Shown piece after piece: positions 30,098-44,166 of a stretch of DNA of 45,380 nucleotides. Position 1 is the first letter of the stretch. Every line of letters begins with the position of its first letter. The position numbers and the translations under genes were made by a program. The DNA comes from Ignavibacteriota bacterium (lineage in GTDB: Bacteria; Bacteroidota; Ignavibacteria; UBA10030), in NCBI GenBank assembly GCA_003170475.1, contig PMZI01000016.1:73165-118544 (forward strand). The letters run 5' to 3'. The notes under the pieces were generated by a model. The model did no database searches. It was not told the origin of the DNA and was given only the letters and a program-made list of their open reading frames with translations.

Positions 30098-30106
30098 TCA
30101 CTTGAG
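29909..30106. repeat. 66-bp tandem array, three copies
   Basis: Copies start at 29909, 29975 and 30041, each exactly 66 bases. Each begins AGATCC and holds a CTCAGGATGAC or CTCGGGATGAC core. Copies 2 and 3 are about three-quarters identical; copy 1 is more diverged. Each unit has imperfect internal symmetry (GATCCT near the start, AGGATGAC near the middle). The last copy runs up to the stop codon of the DUF1501 gene. The unit resembles the dispersed GATCCTTCG...CTCAGGATGAC repeats seen in many bacterial genomes. Confidence 0.75.
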
Positions 30107-31711
30107 CAGCATCATTTTCTTTCGATCTCTGAACGATCCCGCCTGGATTTGATAGATATACGCTCCAGTGGCAAGACCGGACGTCGAGGAAAAAGGTACG
30201 GCATGATGTCCCGCGCTCTGCCGTGTATCGACAAGGGTCGTCACTTCGCGTCCGAGCATGTCATAGATCTTGAGCACTACATCCGCCTCGTTCGGGAGAT
30301 CGTACGAAATCGTCGTTGATGGATTGAACGGATTCGGATAATTTTCGTAGAGCACGTATTCGCTCGGGACAGTCTGAGTATTCTCGACAGCGGTCACTCC
30401 GGGCTTGAGAATAGGGAGCTGCGCAAAGTTGCGCAGCATGACCGCGCTGAGTTCATTCGTGTCGGTCCCAAACCATTGACTCAGGATGGAAGCATAGACT
30501 GACCGAAAATCATACGTCATCGTCAAATTGCCGCCGATCAAATTGGCGGGGTTGAGGCTGGGGTTGGCTCCGAGGATGCCATTCGGAACTCCGCCATTGA
30601 CCCATTTCCCAAACACGAAGACCGGAGCAGATGTCCCGTGATCCGTCCCGAGGCTCGCGTTGGATTGCACCCTTCGACCGAATTCAGAAAAGGTCATTCC
30701 CATCACCCGGTCTTCAACATTGAGGAACTTGATGTCATTCTGAAACGCCAGGAGTGCATCCGACAGTTTCTGCAGCAATGTCGCATGCGCTCCAATCGTA
30801 TGATCGTTAGCATCAACCTCGGCGGAATGGAGATCAAAACTTCCCATACTGACGATATAAATGCGAGTCTTGAGTCCCCCTCCAATCAGGCGAGCGACAA
30901 TTTTGAGTTGGTCCGCAAGTGAATTAGGAGTCGGATATGTTTGCTGGCTCTTGACCTTGTCGGCAGCCGCCTTTACGACAGATGCGTACTCAAGCGAATC
31001 CAGGGCAATCTGTCTGACGTAGGAAAGTTCATGTCCCGCCGGTGTGTTCGGAGGCGTGTCGGTCCCGCCACTTGAAATTCCGGTAATAAGATTGTAAAAC
31101 GTGTTGGGATCGGCGATTGAAATTCCCATCGATCTCCCCGGTCCTTCAAGTGCAGTCGAAGTAACCGATCCGATTTGAATCGCGAGCGGGTCAGGCATTA
31201 CCTGATTCGGATAACCACTGGGATATTGCGTGAACTCGTAGTTCAGATATCTCCCAGCCCATCCATCCGTGAGGTATTCATCGGAGTTTGCCGCCGTGAG
31301 CCAAATGTCCGTCGCCCGGAAGTGCGAGAGATTTGGATTGGGATACGAGACGCCCTGCACGACCATGAGTTTCCCCTGATCGTACAGTTGTTTCATTCCC
31401 ACCATCTTGGGATGAAGAGCCGTGGCCGTGGTTAGCCCGGTTCCAGCTGAGGCAATGTCGCTTGCCTTGATCGCGATATTCGCCCGCGCATTGTTGTAAT
31501 CGGTCATTTGATCGAGAGGGATGACGGTGTTGATTCCGTCGTTTCCCCCTGAGAGTTGCACGAGCACCAGTACACGATCAGTTGCGTTCAACGCTCCCGC
31601 CAGTGTCTCAAGAAAGGGCGATCGACCGTACGCGCGCAACGGAAGGCCATTCAACAGAAATGGCAATGCGGTCACCGGAACCACACCGCGAAGAAAGTCT
31701 CTGCGTTTCAT
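30098..31711 (-). CDS. DUF1501 protein with Tat signal and T9SS sorting domain
   Basis: The 537-residue protein starts with a twin-arginine signal (MKRRDFLRGVVPVTALPFLL), then the DUF1501 domain (LVQLSGGNDGINTVIPLDQM, GVSYPNPNLSHFRATDIW, DHGTSAPVFVFG). The last 85 or so residues are a type IX secretion sorting domain (YENYPNPFNPSTTISYDL, then VVLKIYDMLGREVTTLVD and GAYIYQIQAG). It should therefore be folded, exported by Tat, and passed to the T9SS at the outer membrane. DUF1501 is distantly related to the alkaline-phosphatase superfamily; activity is unknown. It lies 41 bases downstream of DUF1800, its usual partner. Confidence 0.92.
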   Translation of the reverse strand: MKRRDFLRGVVPVTALPFLLNGLPLRAYGRSPFLETLAGALNATDRVLVLVQLSGGNDGINTVIPLDQMTDYNNARANIAIKASDIASAGTGLTTATALHPKMVGMKQLYDQGKLMVVQGVSYPNPNLSHFRATDIWLTAANSDEYLTDGWAGRYLNYEFTQYPSGYPNQVMPDPLAIQIGSVTSTALEGPGRSMGISIADPNTFYNLITGISSGGTDTPPNTPAGHELSYVRQIALDSLEYASVVKAAADKVKSQQTYPTPNSLADQLKIVARLIGGGLKTRIYIVSMGSFDLHSAEVDANDHTIGAHATLLQKLSDALLAFQNDIKFLNVEDRVMGMTFSEFGRRVQSNASLGTDHGTSAPVFVFGKWVNGGVPNGILGANPSLNPANLIGGNLTMTYDFRSVYASILSQWFGTDTNELSAVMLRNFAQLPILKPGVTAVENTQTVPSEYVLYENYPNPFNPSTTISYDLPNEADVVLKIYDMLGREVTTLVDTRQSAGHHAVPFSSTSGLATGAYIYQIQAGSFRDRKKMMLLK

Positions 31712-31752
31712 ACGTCCCCTGTTTTGGAGTGAAGAAGATCAGTGAGTATGCG

Positions 31753-33513
31753 CTATCCGAGCTGAAATTCAGCCATGCGAAACATGAACTTCAGAAGAGG
31801 CGTCAGCATCTTCAACACGATATTCTTGTTCGCGGTTGTCTGGCCGCCGGCAGCCCAGTAGGCATTCCAGGCTGTCGTCCATGCCCCCTCCCCGTTCACA
31901 ACCAGACCCATAACGTTGTACATCAGGTAGTCGCTCTGAGTCTTGGTCAACGGTATCGGAAAGAGTTGCGTGGCAAGATCGTTGATCAATTGAAACGGAT
32001 CTGCGGGTGTCCCCATCGTTTTTGCAAATGCAATCGGATCAAAAAGAAGTTTCCCAGTACCCGTCCCGGAGCCCAGACCGGTGAACAACAGGTCGGTGAT
32101 TTGCCCCCGAAGCGGAAGTGTTGTTGTGCTGACCCATATCTCATAGAAATCAGGAATCTGGTAGTACGCCTCCCATCCTGCGACGCTGGGAGGATCCAGC
32201 ACGTTCATTTCCTGAATTGCCGCGCGGTTTCGAAGGTCGCCAAACGCCAGATAATAGTTCGGATCGGTCATCGCCGGCAGCGGGATTCCCGTCTGTCGCA
32301 CCGTGCCAACGATGAAGTCCATCGGGTTCTTGATCATGCAGCCGATGTTGTTATCGTCATAGAAGTGCGCGCTGCGGAAAAGCGCATTCAACACAGGCAG
32401 AACCTCGAAATTGTTCGATGACATGATATTGGCAAGTGGGATGATGACATTCGTTTCCGCATTTGCGTCGATATCGTAATACACAAACCATCGGTACAGC
32501 TTCCTGCACATGTAGCGCGCAACTTTGTTGACGCCGTCGGTGTCGACCTGCGAAAAGATCATCGTGAACATGTCATCAAGTTCTTTCGGAGCGTCAACAG
32601 CCGTCGATCGTCCTTGAATCACGGTGTTGCCATACTGTCCGGAGAACTGCTTGTTCGTGGTATCATGATTCGCGAGCGTGAAGAGGTAGTCGATGGTCGC
32701 GTTTGTGGTCACCCGATAACCGACGTCGCTGAATCCTGTGAGCACTTTTGCAGCGGCCTGGACGTCCGCTTCGGTATAGTTCGTGTAATTTCCCTGGGCA
32801 ATCTGTGGTCCCTTGCCGATGGTGAACAGCTCCTGAACCTCACGACCATAGTTCTCATTTGCATGCGCCTTCGTATTTGTATCTCCATTAAGATACCGAA
32901 GCATCGCGGGATCGATCGTCGCCAGTTTCACCAGCTGTTTGAAGTTTCCAAGCGCGTTCTGGCGATAGAGCGCAAGCTGCCTGAACAAGAATCGCGAATC
33001 CGCCACCGTGGCATACGCGGAGACAAAATGGTTGTGCCAGAAAAGCACCATTTTTTCCTGAATGGACATTCCCTGGCGCGCCATCAACCCAACCCACCAT
33101 GCCTTCAACCAATTGGCATACGAACCGTCGTTCAGCGAATCGAAGGGAAGATTGACCCAAGTCTGCCCGGCTGCCAGCGGCGGAGAGGGGCCAATCGGAG
33201 CATCAGGCAACGCTTGAGAAGCCATGAGGGAAGTCAGCGTAGCATCGAGGCTCTGCGACGCCGCTTGCAGGATCTCAGCCCGTGTCGGCCCGAACATCGT
33301 CCGCCGAAGCAAATGTGCGGCAGTCTTCGTCCCCCAGTCTTGGGGGCTCATGGCCTCTAACCCTTTTACACTTCGGACAAGATTCCTGGATCGCTGGATG
33401 GCGAGAGAATTTTTGGAGGGCGATTGAGGATCCCGTGGACTGTCATCGTTGAGAGCTGCGACGCCCTCTTGAACAGATCCGATTGCTCCGGTAAAGAAAT
33501 CTCTTCGGTTCAT
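31753..33513 (-). CDS. DUF1800 family protein
   Basis: The 586-residue protein begins with a twin-arginine-like signal (MNRRDFFTGAIG) with only a modest hydrophobic core, then the DUF1800 domain: TAAHLLRRTMFGPTRAEI, KMVLFWHNHFVSAY, GNFKQLVKLATIDPAMLRYLNG, NENYGREVQELFTIGKG, CRKLYRWFVYYDI and GWEAYYQIPDFYEIW. DUF1800 and DUF1501 genes are habitually paired and are probably jointly exported. The mode of action is unknown. No T9SS sorting domain is present at its C-terminus, unlike the partner. The ATG has GAAGGGG upstream. Confidence 0.92.
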   Translation of the reverse strand: MNRRDFFTGAIGSVQEGVAALNDDSPRDPQSPSKNSLAIQRSRNLVRSVKGLEAMSPQDWGTKTAAHLLRRTMFGPTRAEILQAASQSLDATLTSLMASQALPDAPIGPSPPLAAGQTWVNLPFDSLNDGSYANWLKAWWVGLMARQGMSIQEKMVLFWHNHFVSAYATVADSRFLFRQLALYRQNALGNFKQLVKLATIDPAMLRYLNGDTNTKAHANENYGREVQELFTIGKGPQIAQGNYTNYTEADVQAAAKVLTGFSDVGYRVTTNATIDYLFTLANHDTTNKQFSGQYGNTVIQGRSTAVDAPKELDDMFTMIFSQVDTDGVNKVARYMCRKLYRWFVYYDIDANAETNVIIPLANIMSSNNFEVLPVLNALFRSAHFYDDNNIGCMIKNPMDFIVGTVRQTGIPLPAMTDPNYYLAFGDLRNRAAIQEMNVLDPPSVAGWEAYYQIPDFYEIWVSTTTLPLRGQITDLLFTGLGSGTGTGKLLFDPIAFAKTMGTPADPFQLINDLATQLFPIPLTKTQSDYLMYNVMGLVVNGEGAWTTAWNAYWAAGGQTTANKNIVLKMLTPLLKFMFRMAEFQLG

Positions 33514-36595: not shown

Positions 36596-37558
36596 TCAGA
36601 TCAAAAACCGTCCGCCCTCCATCACCTTTTTGTCATCGAACCAAACAGTCGGTTCCTTGATGAGCCCATCGAGATGACTCGCCACACGAACGGAGCCACC
36701 CATCGATTTATTGTCGCCGAAAGCGATGTGGATGGTCCCCATGACTTTTTCGTCTTCAATGATCAATCCGGTAAGGATGGCCCTGTCATTCGTTCCAATG
36801 CCAAATTCAGCGACGGTTCGTGCGTCCTTGCCATGAGGCTCCAGAAGTTCTATCAAGCGCTTCGCTTCGGCTCCACCCGTGATGTCTGTAGCGTACCCGT
36901 CTTGCACGGTAATCCGGATGGGCTCCCTCACCAGCCCAACCTGCGCCATCGAACCATCAACAACAACCACCCCTTGCGATTCCCCTTCGAGCGGGGCAAG
37001 ATATGCCTCACCCGTTGGGAGGTTTCCCCAGAGGCCTTTTTCGCGGAAGAGGCCGGAGCTCGCATGGGCCTTTCTCCCTTTGATGGGAAGCGTCACATCT
37101 GTGCCGGACGGGGCTTTGACTCTCACGATACTGGTCTTCTCCAACTCGTCGCAAAGACGAAACGTCCGCTCAGCAATCTTGTGATAGTCGGCGTTCATGC
37201 AACGGACCATGATCTCCTCTGTCACTCCGGGTAACGTGGCGACCCTGGCCCCCGATGCACTCGCCGCACGCCGCGAGTCGGTATGGGTGAGAGATTTGGA
37301 AGTGGGACACAAAACAACGTCAACCATCTTCATCAGTTCCGCTACTTCCGGAGGAGGTTCAGCACCATTGGAGGCTCGCGGCAGAATTTCCACGAGCATA
37401 ACTTCCGTGCCAAGGTCCTTCGCTGCTTGCCACAACGCATAGCCTATCGTCCGGAGCGGTTCATCAGTCACGATAAGAACACGCTCACCAGCTTTCGTAC
37501 CCATGCAGTCGCGGACAGCAATGAGAGAAGCGGAATAGAGCTCAGGAGAAACGACCAC
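36596..37558 (-). CDS. M29-like (aminopeptidase T, COG2309) metallo-aminopeptidase
   Basis: The product of about 320 residues has the M29 signature region: AEFGIGTNDRAILTGLIIEDEKVMGTIHIAFGDN followed by HLDGLIKEPTVWFDD, providing metal-binding Glu, His and Asp residues. It should remove N-terminal residues from peptides in the cytoplasm. The open frame extends upstream through a heptad repeat and the end of the MFS gene; that extension encodes low-complexity sequence. The GTG at 37556-37558 is the first start that leaves only the conserved domain. It opens the peptide-use block (transporters, PepD, ProDH). Confidence 0.85.
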   Translation of the reverse strand: MVVSPELYSASLIAVRDCMGTKAGERVLIVTDEPLRTIGYALWQAAKDLGTEVMLVEILPRASNGAEPPPEVAELMKMVDVVLCPTSKSLTHTDSRRAASASGARVATLPGVTEEIMVRCMNADYHKIAERTFRLCDELEKTSIVRVKAPSGTDVTLPIKGRKAHASSGLFREKGLWGNLPTGEAYLAPLEGESQGVVVVDGSMAQVGLVREPIRITVQDGYATDITGGAEAKRLIELLEPHGKDARTVAEFGIGTNDRAILTGLIIEDEKVMGTIHIAFGDNKSMGGSVRVASHLDGLIKEPTVWFDDKKVMEGGRFLI

Positions 37559-37624
37559 GGGAGTTCCGATTGTCGATGTTCGATGTATGATTTGGAAATG
37601 GCTAATAGGTGAATTGTAGAGTCC

Positions 37625-37680
37625 TAGTTTCGAGTTTTGAGTTCTGAGTTCTGAGTTCTGACTCCCGGATTCTCCCTTCC
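37625..37680. repeat. heptad array (GAGTTCT)n
   Basis: Eight 7-bp units, three of them exact GAGTTCT (37639-37659) flanked by diverged copies (TAGTTTC, GAGTTTT, GACTCCC, GGATTCT, CCCTTCC). The array abuts the stop codon of the MFS gene and falls inside the spurious N-terminal extension of the aminopeptidase reading frame, where it would encode a repeating RTQNSEL-type sequence. Confidence 0.75.
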
Positions 37681-39011
37681 TATTTCGAGCTTGCTTTGAT
37701 CGTCTCCAGCCCGTGCCCTTGCGGCCCCGCTTCTGTTTTCCGAAGCATGATCGCAAAGAACAGTCCCAGGAAACCGAGAGTGGAGAAGATCCACATGCCG
37801 ACGGCATAGCCTCCGGGATTGGTTCCGCTCCCATGGCCTGCGTCGTTCGCCATGCCTACCATAAGATTGAGGGCGAAGAAACCGATTTGCTGAATCAGCG
37901 TCATCAGCGCATATGCAGTACCGAGACGCTTCTCTTCGACGATGTAGGCAACTGAAGGCCACATGACAGCAGGGATAAGCGAGAAGGCAATCCCCATCAT
38001 CGACACCGGAACCCAAAGCGTTACTCCGCTGTACATCATGATCAAATAAACCGGCATCAGGAGAAATGAGCCTACCATCATGAAGAGAGCACGCTTTCCG
38101 ACTTTGTCGACCAGAAGTCCGAAGAGCGGCGTCGCAATCATCGCTGAAAAAGGGAGCAGGCTGTTGAAGAACCCGGCCGAGCTGCGAGCAGCGCCTTCAG
38201 CGAGACCTGCGAAATGCGTATCCATGAAGAATTTGATGGCAAACGTCCGGAATGGAAAGATCGCAGAGTAGAAAGCGAAACAGAGTGCGACAATGTACCA
38301 ATATGACTTGTTGAAACGGAAGATCCCTTTGAATTCGAGTTTGTCCGTAGAGCCTGCCTGGCCAAGCGAGTACTTGTTGGCGGCACTATTCTCCAACCAC
38401 CAATACACGACAGCAGCAATCACGCAGATCAATCCGGCGCCAACCGCAATGAAGAGCGGTCCTTGCCAGCTTGGCTCCGCACTCGGCCCATGCGGATAAA
38501 ACACTCCTCCTGCCCAGGACGGCGAATTGTCAGCAGCAACCGAAGCCAAACGCGCTATGGTGAGGTTCACCCCGAATGCAAAACTGAGTTCCTTTCCCCG
38601 AAACCATTTTGCAAGAGCGGTGGTCACTGCCACGATCAACGACTCAGCTCCTAGCCCCAGAACGGCTCGCCCCGAAACCATCACGGCAAAGCTCCCTTTG
38701 ACCGCAGTCAACATCGCCCCCAGGAGGCAGAGAACCGAGAATATCAAGATTGCCTTCTTGGCGCCGATCCGGTCGACGACGATGCCGCCGATCAGAAGCG
38801 TCAGCACTGCGGCAACACTGTAGCTCGAGTTCAACCAGCCAACGTTCTCATCGCTGAAGCCCAGTTGCTTCACGAAGATATCGACAACCGGATTAATGGC
38901 ATCATAGATGTAGTAGTTCCCAAACATCGCAAGGCTGAGGAACAGGAGGGCAACCCATCGGAAAACACGCGGCGGTTGGGGCAACGCAATGGAAGCGGCA
39001 GGAGATGACAT
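37680..39011 (-). CDS. MFS transporter
   Basis: The 443-residue carrier has 12 predicted helices and the MFS A-motif (GGIVVDRIGAKKAIL, after about residue 70), plus a similar segment in the second half (GLLVDKVGKRALFM). The ATG at 39009-39011 is preferred; the upstream extension lies over the pepD terminator region and is not protein-like. Substrate cannot be read, but the neighbours (M29 aminopeptidase, PepD, OPT) make a peptide or amino-acid substrate a reasonable guess. Stop codon is touched by a heptad repeat array. Confidence 0.9.
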   Translation of the reverse strand: MSSPAASIALPQPPRVFRWVALLFLSLAMFGNYYIYDAINPVVDIFVKQLGFSDENVGWLNSSYSVAAVLTLLIGGIVVDRIGAKKAILIFSVLCLLGAMLTAVKGSFAVMVSGRAVLGLGAESLIVAVTTALAKWFRGKELSFAFGVNLTIARLASVAADNSPSWAGGVFYPHGPSAEPSWQGPLFIAVGAGLICVIAAVVYWWLENSAANKYSLGQAGSTDKLEFKGIFRFNKSYWYIVALCFAFYSAIFPFRTFAIKFFMDTHFAGLAEGAARSSAGFFNSLLPFSAMIATPLFGLLVDKVGKRALFMMVGSFLLMPVYLIMMYSGVTLWVPVSMMGIAFSLIPAVMWPSVAYIVEEKRLGTAYALMTLIQQIGFFALNLMVGMANDAGHGSGTNPGGYAVGMWIFSTLGFLGLFFAIMLRKTEAGPQGHGLETIKASSK

Positions 39012-39025
39012 AGGCACTCGCGGAA

Positions 39026-39069
39026 AAATGAAAAAGAAATGGGCAGGCAAAAAAGTCTCTTGCCTGCCC
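39026..39069 (-). terminator. strong intrinsic terminator after pepD
   Basis: GGGCAGGCAA / TTGCCTGCCC makes a perfect 10-bp stem with a 9-base loop, and on the minus strand it is followed by ATTTCTTTTTCATTTT. It lies just past the pepD stop, so the MFS gene is expected to need its own promoter or read-through. Confidence 0.88.
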
Positions 39070-39085
39070 TTGATTGGAACTGGGA

Positions 39086-40543
39086 TTAGTTGACGTTCTT
39101 CAGAATTGCCAGCAGGAACTTCCAGAACTTCTCGACTGTATCGATGTGGATTTTCTCGTCCGGCGAGTGAACTGCCTGCATGGTGGGACCGAATGAGACC
39201 ATATCTATGCCGGGATATTTCTCTCCGATGATCCCGCACTCGAGACCTGCATGAATAGCTTTGACTGCCGGTTCTTTTCCGTACAGCGATTGATACGTGG
39301 ATTTCGCGACCTTCAGGATTGGCGAATCAAGGTTCGGCTTCCATCCCGGATACCCTTCTCCCTTTTCCACCTTCGCACCACCCAGCTCAAACACGCAGGC
39401 GACAGTCTGACAGATCTCCTGAATCTCGGATGCGACAGAGCTGCGTTGACTGGTGATGAGCGTGATCTTTCCCTTCTCCGTCTTGAGCACTGCAACATTC
39501 GTCGAAGTTTCAACGAGCCCGGGAATATCGGCACTCATTTTGATGACGCCATGAGGCAGACCGGCAATCGTCTTGAGTACAAGCGCCTGCAATTGCTTCT
39601 TGACCACTTTCCCCTTCTTCACATTTTTGAGGACTTCAAGCTCAACGACAAGGTCTGGTTCAACCGTTGCGAGTTCAGCCTTCGTTGTGTGCTGGTATGC
39701 GCCAACGACTTTCTTCGCCTGTGCCAGCTTCGCTTTGGGAATGTAGACAAGTGCCTCTGCTTCACGTGGTATGGCGTTACTCTTGTTACCGCCCTCCATA
39801 TTCGCAATGCGCACACCGAGATCGGTCAGGCCAATGAGCGTGCGGTTGAGAATCTTGAGGGAATTTCCGCGACCCTTGTCGATTTCGAGTCCGGAGTGCC
39901 CCCCTTTCAATCCTTTCACGTGGATCATCGCAGCAACAGTGTTTCCCGGTGCGTTCTCAAAATTTACTTTCCACACACCCGTTGTGTTCTTTCCGCCTGA
40001 GCAGCCGACGTACAATTCGCCCTCTTCTTCAGAGTCCAGGTTCATTAAAATCTTGCTCTGCACAAATCCGGGCTTCAGATTCGTGGCGCCCGTCAATCCA
40101 GTCTCTTCATCGATTGTGAAAAGGAATTCCAACGGACCGTGAACAAGCGATTTGTCTTCCATGATCGCCAGGTTCGTGGCAACGGCGACACCGTTATCCG
40201 CACCAAGGGTCGTTCCATTTGCCATCATCAAGTTGCCGTTACGGACAAGTTCAATAGGATCCTTCTCAAAGTCATGGACCGTGTCCTTGTTCTTCTCGCA
40301 GACCATATCCAGGTGTCCCTGCAAACAGATCATGGGGCGGTTTTCGTAACCGGGAGAAGCCGGCTTGCGAACAACCACCGTCATGAACTTGTCCTGCTTT
40401 GCCTCGAGCCCAAATTCCTTGGCCTTCTGCATGACATATGCAGCAATCTGTTTTTCGTTTTTTGAGCCGCGTGGAATCTTGCTGATCTCGGCAAAGTACT
40501 TCCACACGCCTTCGGGTTTTAATCCTTCAATGGGGTTTGACAT
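39086..40543 (-). CDS. pepD: aminoacyl-histidine dipeptidase (M20C)
   Basis: The 485-residue PepD cleaves dipeptides such as carnosine-type Xaa-His and many others in the cytoplasm. The M20C metal-binding set is present: CLQGHLDMVCEKN, LGADNGVAVA, DEETGLTGATNL, NLDSEEEGELYVGCSGG and a late LECGIIGEKYPGIDMVSFGP. Length is normal for PepD. The ribosome-binding site is AAGGAGA; a nearly identical leader (AAGGAGACTG) also precedes the OPT gene. The upstream PqqD-like gene ends 20 bases before the ATG, so the two are likely cotranscribed. A strong terminator follows it. Confidence 0.94.
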   Translation of the reverse strand: MSNPIEGLKPEGVWKYFAEISKIPRGSKNEKQIAAYVMQKAKEFGLEAKQDKFMTVVVRKPASPGYENRPMICLQGHLDMVCEKNKDTVHDFEKDPIELVRNGNLMMANGTTLGADNGVAVATNLAIMEDKSLVHGPLEFLFTIDEETGLTGATNLKPGFVQSKILMNLDSEEEGELYVGCSGGKNTTGVWKVNFENAPGNTVAAMIHVKGLKGGHSGLEIDKGRGNSLKILNRTLIGLTDLGVRIANMEGGNKSNAIPREAEALVYIPKAKLAQAKKVVGAYQHTTKAELATVEPDLVVELEVLKNVKKGKVVKKQLQALVLKTIAGLPHGVIKMSADIPGLVETSTNVAVLKTEKGKITLITSQRSSVASEIQEICQTVACVFELGGAKVEKGEGYPGWKPNLDSPILKVAKSTYQSLYGKEPAVKAIHAGLECGIIGEKYPGIDMVSFGPTMQAVHSPDEKIHIDTVEKFWKFLLAILKNVN

Positions 40544-40563: not shown

Positions 40564-40938
40564 TCATTGTTGCTTTGGTGCTGTGACATGAGCATTGAGG
40601 TTCACAAGATCTGACTTCTCCAGCATGAGGAGGAACGTGCGAATCCGGTCTTCGGCAGATTCCGCCGTTTCCGTGAATTCAGAGCGCAGTCTCTCGGCGA
40701 TCTCTGCCACCGTGGTTCGTCCGTCACACTGTTTCCAAACAAAACTTCCCAGCCTGTCCAGCTTGACACGAACATGAGGATACTTCAGGTGCGGAACAAG
40801 CCATTTCACCAGCAGCTCGTGTTGAAACTTTGGAATGAGAACAACGACATTTCCGTTCTCCGCCGTTTCCCACGTCGCTCTCTGCTCTGGGGTGAGCTCG
40901 AGGAGGTTGATGGATTGCCTGTTCTTACGTCGCAGCAT
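40564..40938 (-). CDS. orphan PqqD-like (RRE-fold) protein
   Basis: The 124-residue protein has a short N-terminal segment, then a PqqD-like winged-helix region: VRVKLDRLGSFVWKQCDGRTTVAEIAERLRSEF followed by RIRTFLLMLEKSDLVNL. PqqD-type RREs bind leader peptides for radical-SAM or other modifying enzymes. No radical-SAM gene, precursor peptide or other pqq gene is in the window, so the protein may serve a partner elsewhere or have taken another peptide-binding role. It lies between a dipeptidase (20 bases downstream) and the OPT transporter gene, itself followed by a terminator. Confidence 0.8.
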   Translation of the reverse strand: MLRRKNRQSINLLELTPEQRATWETAENGNVVVLIPKFQHELLVKWLVPHLKYPHVRVKLDRLGSFVWKQCDGRTTVAEIAERLRSEFTETAESAEDRIRTFLLMLEKSDLVNLNAHVTAPKQQ

Positions 40939-40964: not shown

Positions 40965-41003
40965 AAAATGAGCGGAGCAAGCTTGGCAGCGTTACTCCGC
41001 TCA
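40965..41003 (-). terminator. intrinsic terminator after OPT transporter gene
   Basis: TGAGCGGAG / CTCCGCTCA forms a perfect 9-bp stem with a 17-base loop, followed on the minus strand by TTTTG. It starts 20 bases past the OPT stop. Confidence 0.72.
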
Positions 41004-41023: not shown

Positions 41024-43132
41024 CTACATCATCGCCGTCGGTGGCGCAGGCTCATCGGGTGATCCCGCCTTTTTCAACGGAACAAAGATAAGATAGAATG
41101 CCAGAACAGCAAAGAATGCAACCGCCAGATACGGCGCGACATCGTTGAAAATGTCCAAGGACACGAATTCAGGCGGTTTGCCCATGCGATCGTTTATAAA
41201 GACGACAGCCGCAATGAACAATCCCATGAGCGCCTCTCCGGCAATCAATCCAGAAGCTGCAAGAATTCCTGCATTCTCCACCCGCGCCTTCTGAGCATCA
41301 TTATGACCGCGTTTCTTTGAAAGCCGATCGACTACGCCACGAATCATGCCGCCAATAAAAATTGCGAAGGTCGTGCCGAGCGGGAGATACATGCCAACAG
41401 AGAAAAGCATCGGACTACGGACCTTAATGAGGATCATGGAAATTCCCATTGCGATGCCGACAATGACGAGCGGCCAGGCCATCTCACCGCCGATGATTCC
41501 CTGTGAAAGGGCGGCCATCAAGCCTGCCTGAGGAGCTGGTAGGTGAGCGCTTCCAAAACCACCGTTTGTCGGGTTCAGCGCCAGGTCTGAATTATGTAGC
41601 ACGTAAAGCGGAAAGAACATGACCAAGCCGGCAAGGATCACACCGATGATGTCACCGATCTGCATTTTCCATGGTGTTCCGCCGAGAATATGACCAACCT
41701 TCAGATCCTGCAACATTTCCCCCGCTACCGCCGACGAAACGCACACGACGGCGGCCACGCCCAGTACCGCGGCGACCCCCTGACTTCCGGAGACGCCGAC
41801 AAGCACCATCGTCAGCGCTGCAACGACGGTTGTCGCAAGCGTGAGCCCGGAGATAGGGTTGTTGGACGATCCAATGAGTCCAACCAGATTGCCGGAGACT
41901 GCAGCGAAAAAGAACCCAGTAATAAGCATGACCAACGCAGCCAGAATTGCGCCGCCGATCACCTGAGTGAAATAGAAATAGAGGGCAATCATGAGCAAGA
42001 AGATGACGACGATACCCAGCAAAACGACGCGGAACGAAAGGTCTTTTTCAGTGCGAAGAGTGGTGGTATCTGCTGATGCCGCCTTCCGCACATCTGCGAC
42101 GCCGCGCTTGATGCCCAGGATGAGATTCTTCCGCATCTTCCAGAGTGTGAAGCAAGCGCCGACGAGCATACCGCCCACCGCGATTGGTCGGACGATATAT
42201 CGATAGAGATGGCCTGTGAGTTGCGCCCAGTGCTGCGTTCCATCTGGTGTGGTGTATTTGTCGATCATATTGGGGCCAACGAAGAACACCAGCAGTGGCA
42301 CAAGAAGTCCCCATGCCAGCAGTCCGCCGGCGAAGTTCAGAGCACCGAGCTCGGGACCGATGATGTAGCCCACGCCAATGTACGCTGGCGTGATATCGGG
42401 AGCAGAAAACGTCGTGATACCTCCAGCCGGTACGACATTCGATTCCTTCGTTAGACCGAGCCTGACGAGGCTCTCCTTGAGCTTTCCCACGGGGATCTGA
42501 AAGGTGTTCTGATAGAAGAAAACACCCAATCCATCCTTTGTTCCGATATCGCCCCTGGAGAGTAATTTGACCAAGGCACCTACGCCCATCGCCTTAAACA
42601 GCTGCATTGCGGCTCCCATGCCGCGTTGGCCGGCCTTGTGGATTTCGCTGGCAGCAACCGATTCAGGGAATGGAAGCGTATGGTCCTCGACCATGACTTT
42701 GCGAAGGATTGTAACGAACATAATCCCAAGAACTCCACCGAGGATCATCAGCGCGCTGGCAGTCAGATACTCTGTCAGCATATTGGCCGTGTCGAACTTC
42801 CAAAGCTGGAGAACCACGAATGCCGGGATCGTAAAGATCGCACCGGCAGCGACCGACTCACCGATGGATCCGACCGTTCGGGCAAAGTTCTCTTCGAGAA
42901 GTGAACCTTTGTAGATTCGCAGGATCGCCATGCCGATGACTGCTGCCGGGTAGGTGGCAGCGATCGTCATTCCTGCCTTGAGGCCGAGGTAGGCATTCGC
43001 CGCTCCGAGAACCACGCACATGATCAATCCGATAATGAGCGCGCGGACCGTGAATTCCTTCATATCAGTGTCGACGGGAACGAAGGGCCTGAATTTCGGT
43101 TCCCCTCCGCCTCCGCTCTTGATATCTGCCAT
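41024..43132 (-). CDS. OPT family oligopeptide transporter
   Basis: The 702-residue polytopic protein matches the OPT family (proton-coupled oligopeptide carriers of about 15-16 helices): N-terminal FTVRALIIGLIMCVVLGAANAYLGLKAGMTIAATYPAAVIGMA, the mid-region GNLVGLIGSSNNPISGLTL and KMQIGDIIGVILAG. It would import small peptides or peptide conjugates across the inner membrane. The ribosome-binding site AAGGAGA sits before the ATG. It is flanked by ProDH upstream (34 bases) and PqqD-like/PepD downstream, which gives a peptide import-hydrolysis-proline oxidation sequence. Confidence 0.94.
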   Translation of the reverse strand: MADIKSGGGGEPKFRPFVPVDTDMKEFTVRALIIGLIMCVVLGAANAYLGLKAGMTIAATYPAAVIGMAILRIYKGSLLEENFARTVGSIGESVAAGAIFTIPAFVVLQLWKFDTANMLTEYLTASALMILGGVLGIMFVTILRKVMVEDHTLPFPESVAASEIHKAGQRGMGAAMQLFKAMGVGALVKLLSRGDIGTKDGLGVFFYQNTFQIPVGKLKESLVRLGLTKESNVVPAGGITTFSAPDITPAYIGVGYIIGPELGALNFAGGLLAWGLLVPLLVFFVGPNMIDKYTTPDGTQHWAQLTGHLYRYIVRPIAVGGMLVGACFTLWKMRKNLILGIKRGVADVRKAASADTTTLRTEKDLSFRVVLLGIVVIFLLMIALYFYFTQVIGGAILAALVMLITGFFFAAVSGNLVGLIGSSNNPISGLTLATTVVAALTMVLVGVSGSQGVAAVLGVAAVVCVSSAVAGEMLQDLKVGHILGGTPWKMQIGDIIGVILAGLVMFFPLYVLHNSDLALNPTNGGFGSAHLPAPQAGLMAALSQGIIGGEMAWPLVIVGIAMGISMILIKVRSPMLFSVGMYLPLGTTFAIFIGGMIRGVVDRLSKKRGHNDAQKARVENAGILAASGLIAGEALMGLFIAAVVFINDRMGKPPEFVSLDIFNDVAPYLAVAFFAVLAFYLIFVPLKKAGSPDEPAPPTAMM

Positions 43133-43166: not shown

Positions 43167-44066
43167 TCAACGAATAAAGATAGCCTTTGTGATGTACCAC
43201 GCCATGGCTGGATTCTCTTTCAGGCGGCGCGTCGAGTATGCGTACCATTGTTCACCATAGGGAACATAGACGCGAAGTCGATGACCATCTCGAACAATCT
43301 GGTCGCGCCGGGATTCCCGAACCCCAAGGAGCATCTGGAATTCATATTGAGCGGGTTCCAACTCAAGCTTCTTGAGAAGGGTGATAGCTCCATCGATAAG
43401 AAAATCGTCGTGGGTTGCTATCCCAACATAAGAGCCTCCTTCAAGAATGATTTGAAGGAGCTTCAAGTAGTTGTTCCGGATCTCCTGTCGGTCTTTGAAG
43501 GCGATCGAGGGAGACTCATTGTAAATTCCTTTGCAGAGGCGGAAATTGGCGCCTTCCTTGACCAAGGCTCGGACATCCGCTTCGCTTCGATGAAGGTACG
43601 CCTGAATCACAACCCCCATGTTGGAATAGCCATCCGCGCGCAATCGGCGATAGATGGCAATCGTGGCGTCGGTCGTCGTGGCGTCTTCCATGTCGATGCG
43701 CACAAAATTGCCGAGCCGTCGCGCTTCATCGAGAATAGTGCGAATGCTCTGGAAGCAGAGTTCAGGATCGATGCTTAATCCCAGTTGCGTAGGTTTGATT
43801 GAGACGTTGGAGTTGAGTTGATTCTGACCAATCGCCTGGAGAATCGACAGGATATTGTCCCGAACCTGATGGGTCTCCGACGCATCCTTCACGTCTTCTC
43901 CCAGAAGGTCCATCGTGCACATCATCCTTGCTTGATTCAATCTCTTTACTGTCTGAACACCCTGGTTGAGCGTAGTTCCGGCAATATACCTGCTCGCGAC
44001 GCGGCCGACGATAGCCTTTGGAATGAGCGGCATCGCAGTGACGACGAACTTATTAAGAAGGGACAT
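43167..44066 (-). CDS. proline dehydrogenase (monofunctional)
   Basis: The 299-residue FAD enzyme oxidises proline to pyrroline-5-carboxylate. The ProDH barrel motifs are present: VSIKPTQLGLSIDPELC, FVRIDMEDATTTD, NMGVVIQAYLHRSEAD, FRLCKGIYNES, VGIATHDD, YEFQMLLGVRE and the C-terminal VYVPYGEQWYAYSTRRLKENP. The ATG at 44064-44066 is preferred; the 30-residue extension of the frame lacks similarity. There is no P5C-dehydrogenase domain or gene in the window. Its 34-base spacing to the OPT gene suggests cotranscription. Confidence 0.94.
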   Translation of the reverse strand: MSLLNKFVVTAMPLIPKAIVGRVASRYIAGTTLNQGVQTVKRLNQARMMCTMDLLGEDVKDASETHQVRDNILSILQAIGQNQLNSNVSIKPTQLGLSIDPELCFQSIRTILDEARRLGNFVRIDMEDATTTDATIAIYRRLRADGYSNMGVVIQAYLHRSEADVRALVKEGANFRLCKGIYNESPSIAFKDRQEIRNNYLKLLQIILEGGSYVGIATHDDFLIDGAITLLKKLELEPAQYEFQMLLGVRESRRDQIVRDGHRLRVYVPYGEQWYAYSTRRLKENPAMAWYITKAIFIR

Positions 44067-44166
44067 AATCGGATATTCAATTGAGTGAGAAACGCGGAAG
44101 GACTGCAGACCATAACGAGAGAACAACCCGTAACTGCAGACCCGAAAACGATGCAAAAAACGTAAA

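Follow-up and report, generated by a model that had tools for sequence, protein, structure and literature searches.

The PqqD-like protein encoded next to an OPT-family oligopeptide transporter in this Ignavibacteriota genome belongs, as judged by sequence comparison, to a conserved family of its own and is not a stray gene. Computation shows that the family is conserved, that its genes frequently adjoin OPT genes and co-occur with them at the genome level, that the two members modelled are predicted to share a fold, and that the gene is under purifying selection. We lean towards the view that the protein is an accessory factor of the RRE/PqqD fold serving an OPT-dependent peptide-use module outside RiPP synthesis, where it would grip a peptide strand. 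The module would consist of proline dehydrogenase, the OPT importer, the PqqD-like protein, a PepD dipeptidase, an MFS transporter, and an M29 aminopeptidase.

The first-pass annotation of the window (the whole stretch of 45,380 nucleotides analysed here) placed a PqqD-like protein between a dipeptidase and an OPT transporter, and this description holds: its coordinates are exact, and Pfam matches were obtained for all three genes, with TIGR matches for OPT and PepD (Table 1). The three genes lie on one strand, with 85 nt separating OPT from the PqqD-like gene and 20 nt separating the latter from PepD. The PqqD-like frame is not a chance open reading frame, since homologs were found in 41 of the 100 genomes of a search among relatives (its own included) and dN/dS against the nearest homolog, 85% identical, is 0.096, a value that indicates purifying selection. 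A hairpin past the PepD stop suggests the end of the transcription unit; it has the longest stem among the terminator-like sites of the region, which number 8 versus a mean of 8.3 in shuffled sequences. The gap between OPT and the PqqD-like gene also holds an 8-bp inverted repeat with a 17-nt loop (GAGCGGAG/CTCCGCTC, window 40970-41002), perhaps an attenuator or an mRNA-end structure. Elsewhere in the window (30098-33513), the gene for a DUF1501 protein, which bears a Por secretion tail, adjoins one for a DUF1800 protein.

Table 1. Genes and sites of the OPT-associated module in the window.
Feature	Position	Strand	Length	Basis and remarks
M29-type aminopeptidase	36596..37834	-		Same module; homology over 36599-37543; PF02073, 43 bits; 56% identity to M29 of locus L207
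MFS transporter	37680..39011	-		Same module; PF07690, 139 bits; 61% identity to MFS of locus L207; frame listed from 39239, likely start at ATG 39011 (read from translation)
Terminator-like hairpin	39041..39069	-		13 pairs, T-rich tail; just past PepD stop; consensus scan only
PepD-type M20 dipeptidase (TIGR01893 family)	39086..40543	-	485 aa	Downstream of PqqD-like gene; TIGR01893, 596 bits; PF01546, 66 bits
OPT-associated PqqD/RRE-like protein	40564..40938	-	124 aa	ATG at 40938, stop ends at 40564; PF05402 (PqqD), 5.8e-13, 49.4 bits, cut-off 23.4; inserted helix at about residues 41-50; AlphaFold model; dN/dS
OPT-family oligopeptide transporter	41024..43132	-	702 aa	Directly upstream of PqqD-like gene; PF03169, 285 bits; TIGR00733, 358 bits
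Proline dehydrogenase	43167..44156	-		Upstream of OPT; PF01619, 125 bits; same place in most relatives (gene order)

The linkage to OPT recurs well beyond this genome. All 40 other relatives carry OPT immediately upstream in the same orientation, although in one of them a contig edge leaves only 32 residues of it and the profile count is 39 of 40; the usual gene order is proline dehydrogenase-OPT-PqqD-PepD. A scan of named genomes, some of which also belong to the relatives set, confirmed 107 relatives, of which 80 loci were kept. In 74 of these 80 the gene immediately upstream is OPT, a proportion biased by the scan's use of motifs from OPT-linked members and more fairly estimated from the phylum and clostridial samples described below. 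The scripted count was 71, to which L147, L168, and L171 were added from gene order, their open frames overlapping by more than 200 nt. Of the remaining loci, three are truncated by a contig boundary and three (L135, L144, and L146) are true exceptions, with OPT elsewhere in two of the three genomes. L135 is one of the two, and there a PAS histidine kinase (L135:3764-5839) occupies the expected place of OPT upstream of PqqD-PepD.

Among 395 genomes sampled across the phylum, 60 had a match to the family; 6 short proteins of family f28, matching only from about position 54, were set aside, leaving 54 full-length members. Eleven of these, the window included, had been covered by the search among relatives and have OPT adjacent; the loci of the other 43 were fetched. 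OPT is directly upstream in 23, the order is OPT-MFS-PqqD in 6, and no OPT lies within the fetched stretch in 14, all of whose genomes carry OPT elsewhere. Seven of these 14 loci (family f14) retain PqqD-PepD, and the other seven have an MFS gene directly upstream, followed in six of them, after PqqD, by a gene for a 250-aa protein of unknown kind and M29. Taken together, the 20 loci of the 43 in which OPT is not the direct neighbour comprise 7 with PepD adjoining, 12 with MFS, the unknown gene, and M29, and 1 with MFS. The PepD, MFS, and M29 genes of these departures are parts of the same module. The MFS and M29 proteins encoded there are related to those of the window (see L207 in Table 1); a relative of the window MFS is the direct upstream neighbour of PqqD in other loci. 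The 250-aa protein (L207:4391-5131, with relatives in L175-L217), encoded between MFS and M29, seems to carry a signal peptide and matches no Pfam family, and no match to it was found in the window.

Co-occurrence at the genome level follows the same pattern. OPT is present in all 54 phylum genomes with a full-length family member versus 124 of the 395 overall. In a sample of 148 genomes of the clostridial class, 36 carry the family and 48 carry OPT, 33 having both, as counted by reading the match lists, and OPT is directly upstream in 30 of the 33 clostridial loci fetched from 39 matches. Fisher tests on these co-occurrences were run on related genomes, so their values overstate independence. 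OPT-PqqD junctions are often short or overlapping. Checked across genomes in this way, the linkage of the PqqD-like gene to OPT and peptidase genes, on which the first-pass annotation had built its interpretation, proves to be conserved across phyla.

The kept loci of the named-genome scan are titled Ignavibacteria, Calditrichota, KSB1, Gemmatimonadota, Acidobacteria, Deltaproteobacteria, Bacteroidota, Aminicenantes, Clostridia, Synergistaceae, and, in two cases, Thermoplasmata archaea. These names are those of the MAG records, and L095 (Deltaproteobacteria) and L096 (Calditrichaceae) share nearly the same OPT, so one of them may be misbinned. In a MAFFT alignment of 172 members, comprising the distinct sequences from all fetched loci with no motif filter, eight positions are near-fixed: P17 (170), L60 (170), D61 (167), G64 (169), W68 (162), D72 (157), G73 (166), and R98 (170), and the window protein has all eight. 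Alignment A4, from which five clostridial rows lacking the Trp-containing motif were removed and others omitted, owes its "invariant" columns partly to that choice. No frame fusing PqqD with OPT or PepD was seen among the matches listed; the longest open frames at matches to the OPT-associated family are of 228 aa (containing a run of N) and 186 aa, and the 302- and 485-aa frames of genome G107 belong to further PqqD matches, outside the fusion check. In several clostridial loci, a small protein with an apparent single N-terminal membrane helix and a soluble tail is encoded close behind PqqD (L157:6369-6761, L162:6342-6704, L166:6367-6711, L167:5393-5758, and L161:2563-2901), in four of the five directly before PepD. 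Of the three scanned singly (L157, L162, and L161), only that of L162 gave a match, a weak one to FeoB_associated; this protein is a possible second partner.

The comparison with RREs proposed in the first-pass annotation was carried out on predicted structures, and it bears out the assignment. An AlphaFold2 model of the window protein, built on a 39-row alignment (pLDDT 82.4), begins with three strands, continues through an inserted helix (residues 41-50) and a strand at 55-59, and finishes with three helices and a last strand. Winged-helix topology with three strands and three helices, together with matches to PqqD and RRE structures, places it in the PqqD/RRE superfamily, even though its best Foldseek E-value is a modest 3e-3. 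With VIA-align, the model superimposes on TbiB1 (5v1u), which holds its leader peptide, with Z 11.3 over 82 residues at 2.0 Å, the alignment spanning model residues 17-115 and leaving room for the inserted helix; Z is 10.8 for 6jx3 and 9.7 for the PqqD structure 5sxy. A further model, of a clostridial member and built on another alignment (pLDDT 86.3), repeats this arrangement down to the inserted helix and has largely the same fold matches (Z 11.1 to TbiB1). The top structural match of both models is a domain of the methyltransferase Rv2067c (8hkr; Z 12.4 for the window protein and 11.7 for the clostridial one). Both also weakly resemble the winged-helix domain of a putative peptidase of Clostridium acetobutylicum (3k9t; Z 6.8 and 6.1), possibly another peptidase-linked use of an RRE-like fold.

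The closest known systems differ from this family in several respects. The PqqD of PQQ synthesis (PF05402; TIGR03859; 5sxy, 3g2b) has in common with it the fold and the LD..G...DG core, and the window protein passes the Pfam cut-off. However, it falls below the TIGR03859 cut-off (42.1 versus 46), its genome has no match to SPASM (PqqE-type), and in its family strands 2 and 3 are separated by an additional helix. Discrete lasso-peptide RREs (TbiB1 5v1u/5v1v, 6jx3), solved with leader bound, are the best structural matches among small domains (Z 10.8-11.3), whereas the window protein reaches only 22 bits against NF033536 (cut-off 80), no lasso gene occurs among its Pfam-scanned neighbours, and its context is one of OPT and peptidases. 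The residue Arg98 (170/172) corresponds, as read from alignments, to Asp in the aligned chains of 3g2b, 5v1u (TbiB1), and 9x8z and to Gln in 9x90. The RRE-like winged helix of Rv2067c, despite its highest Z, is part of a larger methyltransferase, whereas the window protein has no methyltransferase domain. OPT transporters of the TIGR00733 subfamily are the conserved neighbour of the family. The fold and the OPT family are both known, whereas among the literature matches listed we found no paper on a PqqD-OPT pairing and none that names an OPT partner of the PqqD kind.

The dependence between the two genes is one-sided. In the phylum sample, 70 of the 124 OPT-bearing genomes lack a full-length member of the family, and the reverse situation, the protein with no OPT match, was encountered in 0 of 54 phylum genomes, 3 of 36 clostridial genomes, and one KSB1 genome of 1.7 Mb. 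An OPT often without PqqD and a PqqD rarely without OPT make up the asymmetry that an accessory factor would show. In an OPT tree of 104 rows (124 less 3 short sequences and 17 duplicates; FastTree, with long-branch warnings, the window being added later), one large clade is accompanied by PqqD throughout (57/57), and the clade of the window's OPT has 17 rows, 13 without PqqD and 4 with it, the window included. Those 13 keep the order proline dehydrogenase-OPT-PepD, with an OPT-PepD gap below 190 nt that leaves no room for PqqD. The PqqD-bearing genomes G001, G003, and G005, of the window's genus, are absent from the tree owing to their fragmentary OPT pieces, and the PqqD-less loci are 20 chosen ones (L074 turned out to have a cut PqqD), with candidates such as G009, G073, and G083 left out. 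Judged from gene content, then, OPT works without the PqqD-like protein. The idea that constraint on PqqD is relaxed in the OPT clade of the window was considered and set aside: the ratio (1-PqqD identity)/(1-PepD identity) is 2.5-5.5 there (6 pairs) versus 1.1-3.9 in the other clade, and the ranges overlap. One of the clostridial loci of the OPT-associated family, in a genome without an OPT match, has a TldD/PmbA-like metallopeptidase nearby (L244:2840-5824).

Several explanations can be set against this background. The possibility of a distant RiPP partner, raised in the first-pass annotation, would make the protein the RRE of a pathway with its enzyme and precursor encoded at other sites of the genome; the fold itself agrees with it, and discrete RREs are able to serve enzymes in trans. 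However, the window gene is the only PF05402 match in its 4.08-Mb genome (96% complete), and searches of that genome found no match to SPASM or YcaO, which matched 8 and 5, respectively, of 14 control genomes in the same searches. No RiPP-modifying enzyme was recognised among the 8 surrounding proteins and 10 further proteins of the window, and none is among the 25 commonest of 134 families of downstream neighbours, a tally of 103 of 106 listed proteins, three large ones having been left out. A single PqqD domain is likewise present in 8 of 9 other genomes checked, G107 having four. The short PqqD proteins of family f28 offer a contrast: at L218, in the same phylum, one adjoins a radical SAM enzyme, and no OPT match was found in any of the three f28 genomes tested (that of L218 and two others). 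Given the sole PqqD domain and the missing SPASM and YcaO matches, as well as the OPT and peptidase linkage across phyla, a RiPP partner is unlikely, and we regard this explanation as very improbable. The word "orphan", applied earlier to the protein, is apt in the RiPP sense and inapt if taken to mean the lack of a conserved partner. Somewhat less improbable, yet still a poor candidate, is a winged-helix protein that regulates transcription of the peptide operon: RREs and DNA-binding winged helices have a common fold, family members often have a pI above 9 (median 9.3 in 39 members), and a passage of the RRE-Finder paper (PMC7470986) suggests that some false positives among discrete lasso-type RREs might bind DNA. 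Against this, the best structural matches are mostly peptide-holding RREs, and the gene lies inside the operon, neither upstream of it nor divergent. In the one sequence analysed for charge, that of the window protein, the positive charge resides in the N-terminal tail; the folded core has a net charge of -2 and helices 2 and 3 of -1 each, and for this reason we give DNA binding little weight.

A more serious alternative, though one we consider rather unlikely, is that the protein is a cytosolic subunit or gate of OPT that binds the inner face of the importer, in stability, assembly, or feedback, and not the transported peptides, the RRE cleft being merely inherited. The frequent direct adjacency with short or overlapping junctions and the genome-level co-occurrence speak for such a subunit, as does the family-specific inserted helix, whose W/F and basic residues could dock on the membrane or the transporter. 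It fits less well with the seven f14 loci that sit with PepD while OPT is elsewhere, the 13 loci directly behind MFS, the 13 of 17 OPT rows of one clade without PqqD, and the lack of a fused OPT-PqqD frame among the matches listed. Our preferred reading is an adaptor that links peptides imported by OPT to the peptidases, because the companion of the family is a whole peptide-use module and not OPT alone; a transporter-binding subunit comes next, followed by DNA binding and then a RiPP role. The suggestion that the protein has a role tied to peptide use, made in the first-pass annotation as a possible new peptide-binding function, is favoured by the conserved OPT and peptidase linkage and by the PqqD/RRE fold match, with peptide binding a probable part of that role.

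As an adaptor, the protein would be cytosolic. In RREs the bound peptide forms an additional strand that lies on strand 3 and helix 3, and the corresponding cleft, which holds the leader peptide there, would here grip a peptide strand. The ligand could be an oligopeptide imported by OPT, held or handed on to the peptidases, or else a short stretch within OPT or a peptidase, whereby the importer would be coupled to peptide breakdown, and the inserted helix may serve as a docking surface. Counting against the adaptor is the diversity of imported food peptides, as known RREs bind particular leader sequences. The OPT tails were considered as the bound leader-like peptide and rejected, neither correlating with the presence of PqqD. 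The near-fixed C-tail (..AG.PDEPAPPSAMM; window 41024-41090) is kept in Ignavibacteria and relatives (L034-L154) whether or not PqqD is present and is absent from PqqD-bearing clostridial, several KSB1, and archaeal OPTs, and nearly all OPTs share the N-tail (FxPFVPA..MxEFT).

Our results also bear on how genes of this kind are interpreted. Discrete RRE matches without lasso machinery are discussed in a passage of the RRE-Finder paper as possible DNA-binding proteins or members of unknown RiPP pathways (PMC7470986), and the OPT-associated family could account for some of these non-lasso matches as a third option beside the two. RREs, whose fold normally serves to deliver peptides to enzymes that make antibiotics, are usually taken as markers of RiPP clusters, and the family is a warning that not every PqqD-family gene encodes a chaperone of peptide modification. 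More tentatively, and at a level of confidence that leaves it doubtful, the RRE fold may be a general peptide-gripping device, RiPP synthesis being only one of its uses, with this family a so far unnamed cytosolic part of the OPT import machinery of bacteria and archaea that would receive or sense imported peptides and couple the importer to peptidases, possibly nearer than leader binding to the original use of the fold. Prokaryotic OPT importers gain a conserved candidate partner that is directly testable. The retention of its gene beside importer and peptidases, in many bacteria as well as some archaea, suggests that it plays a part, not described so far, in the use of peptides as food.
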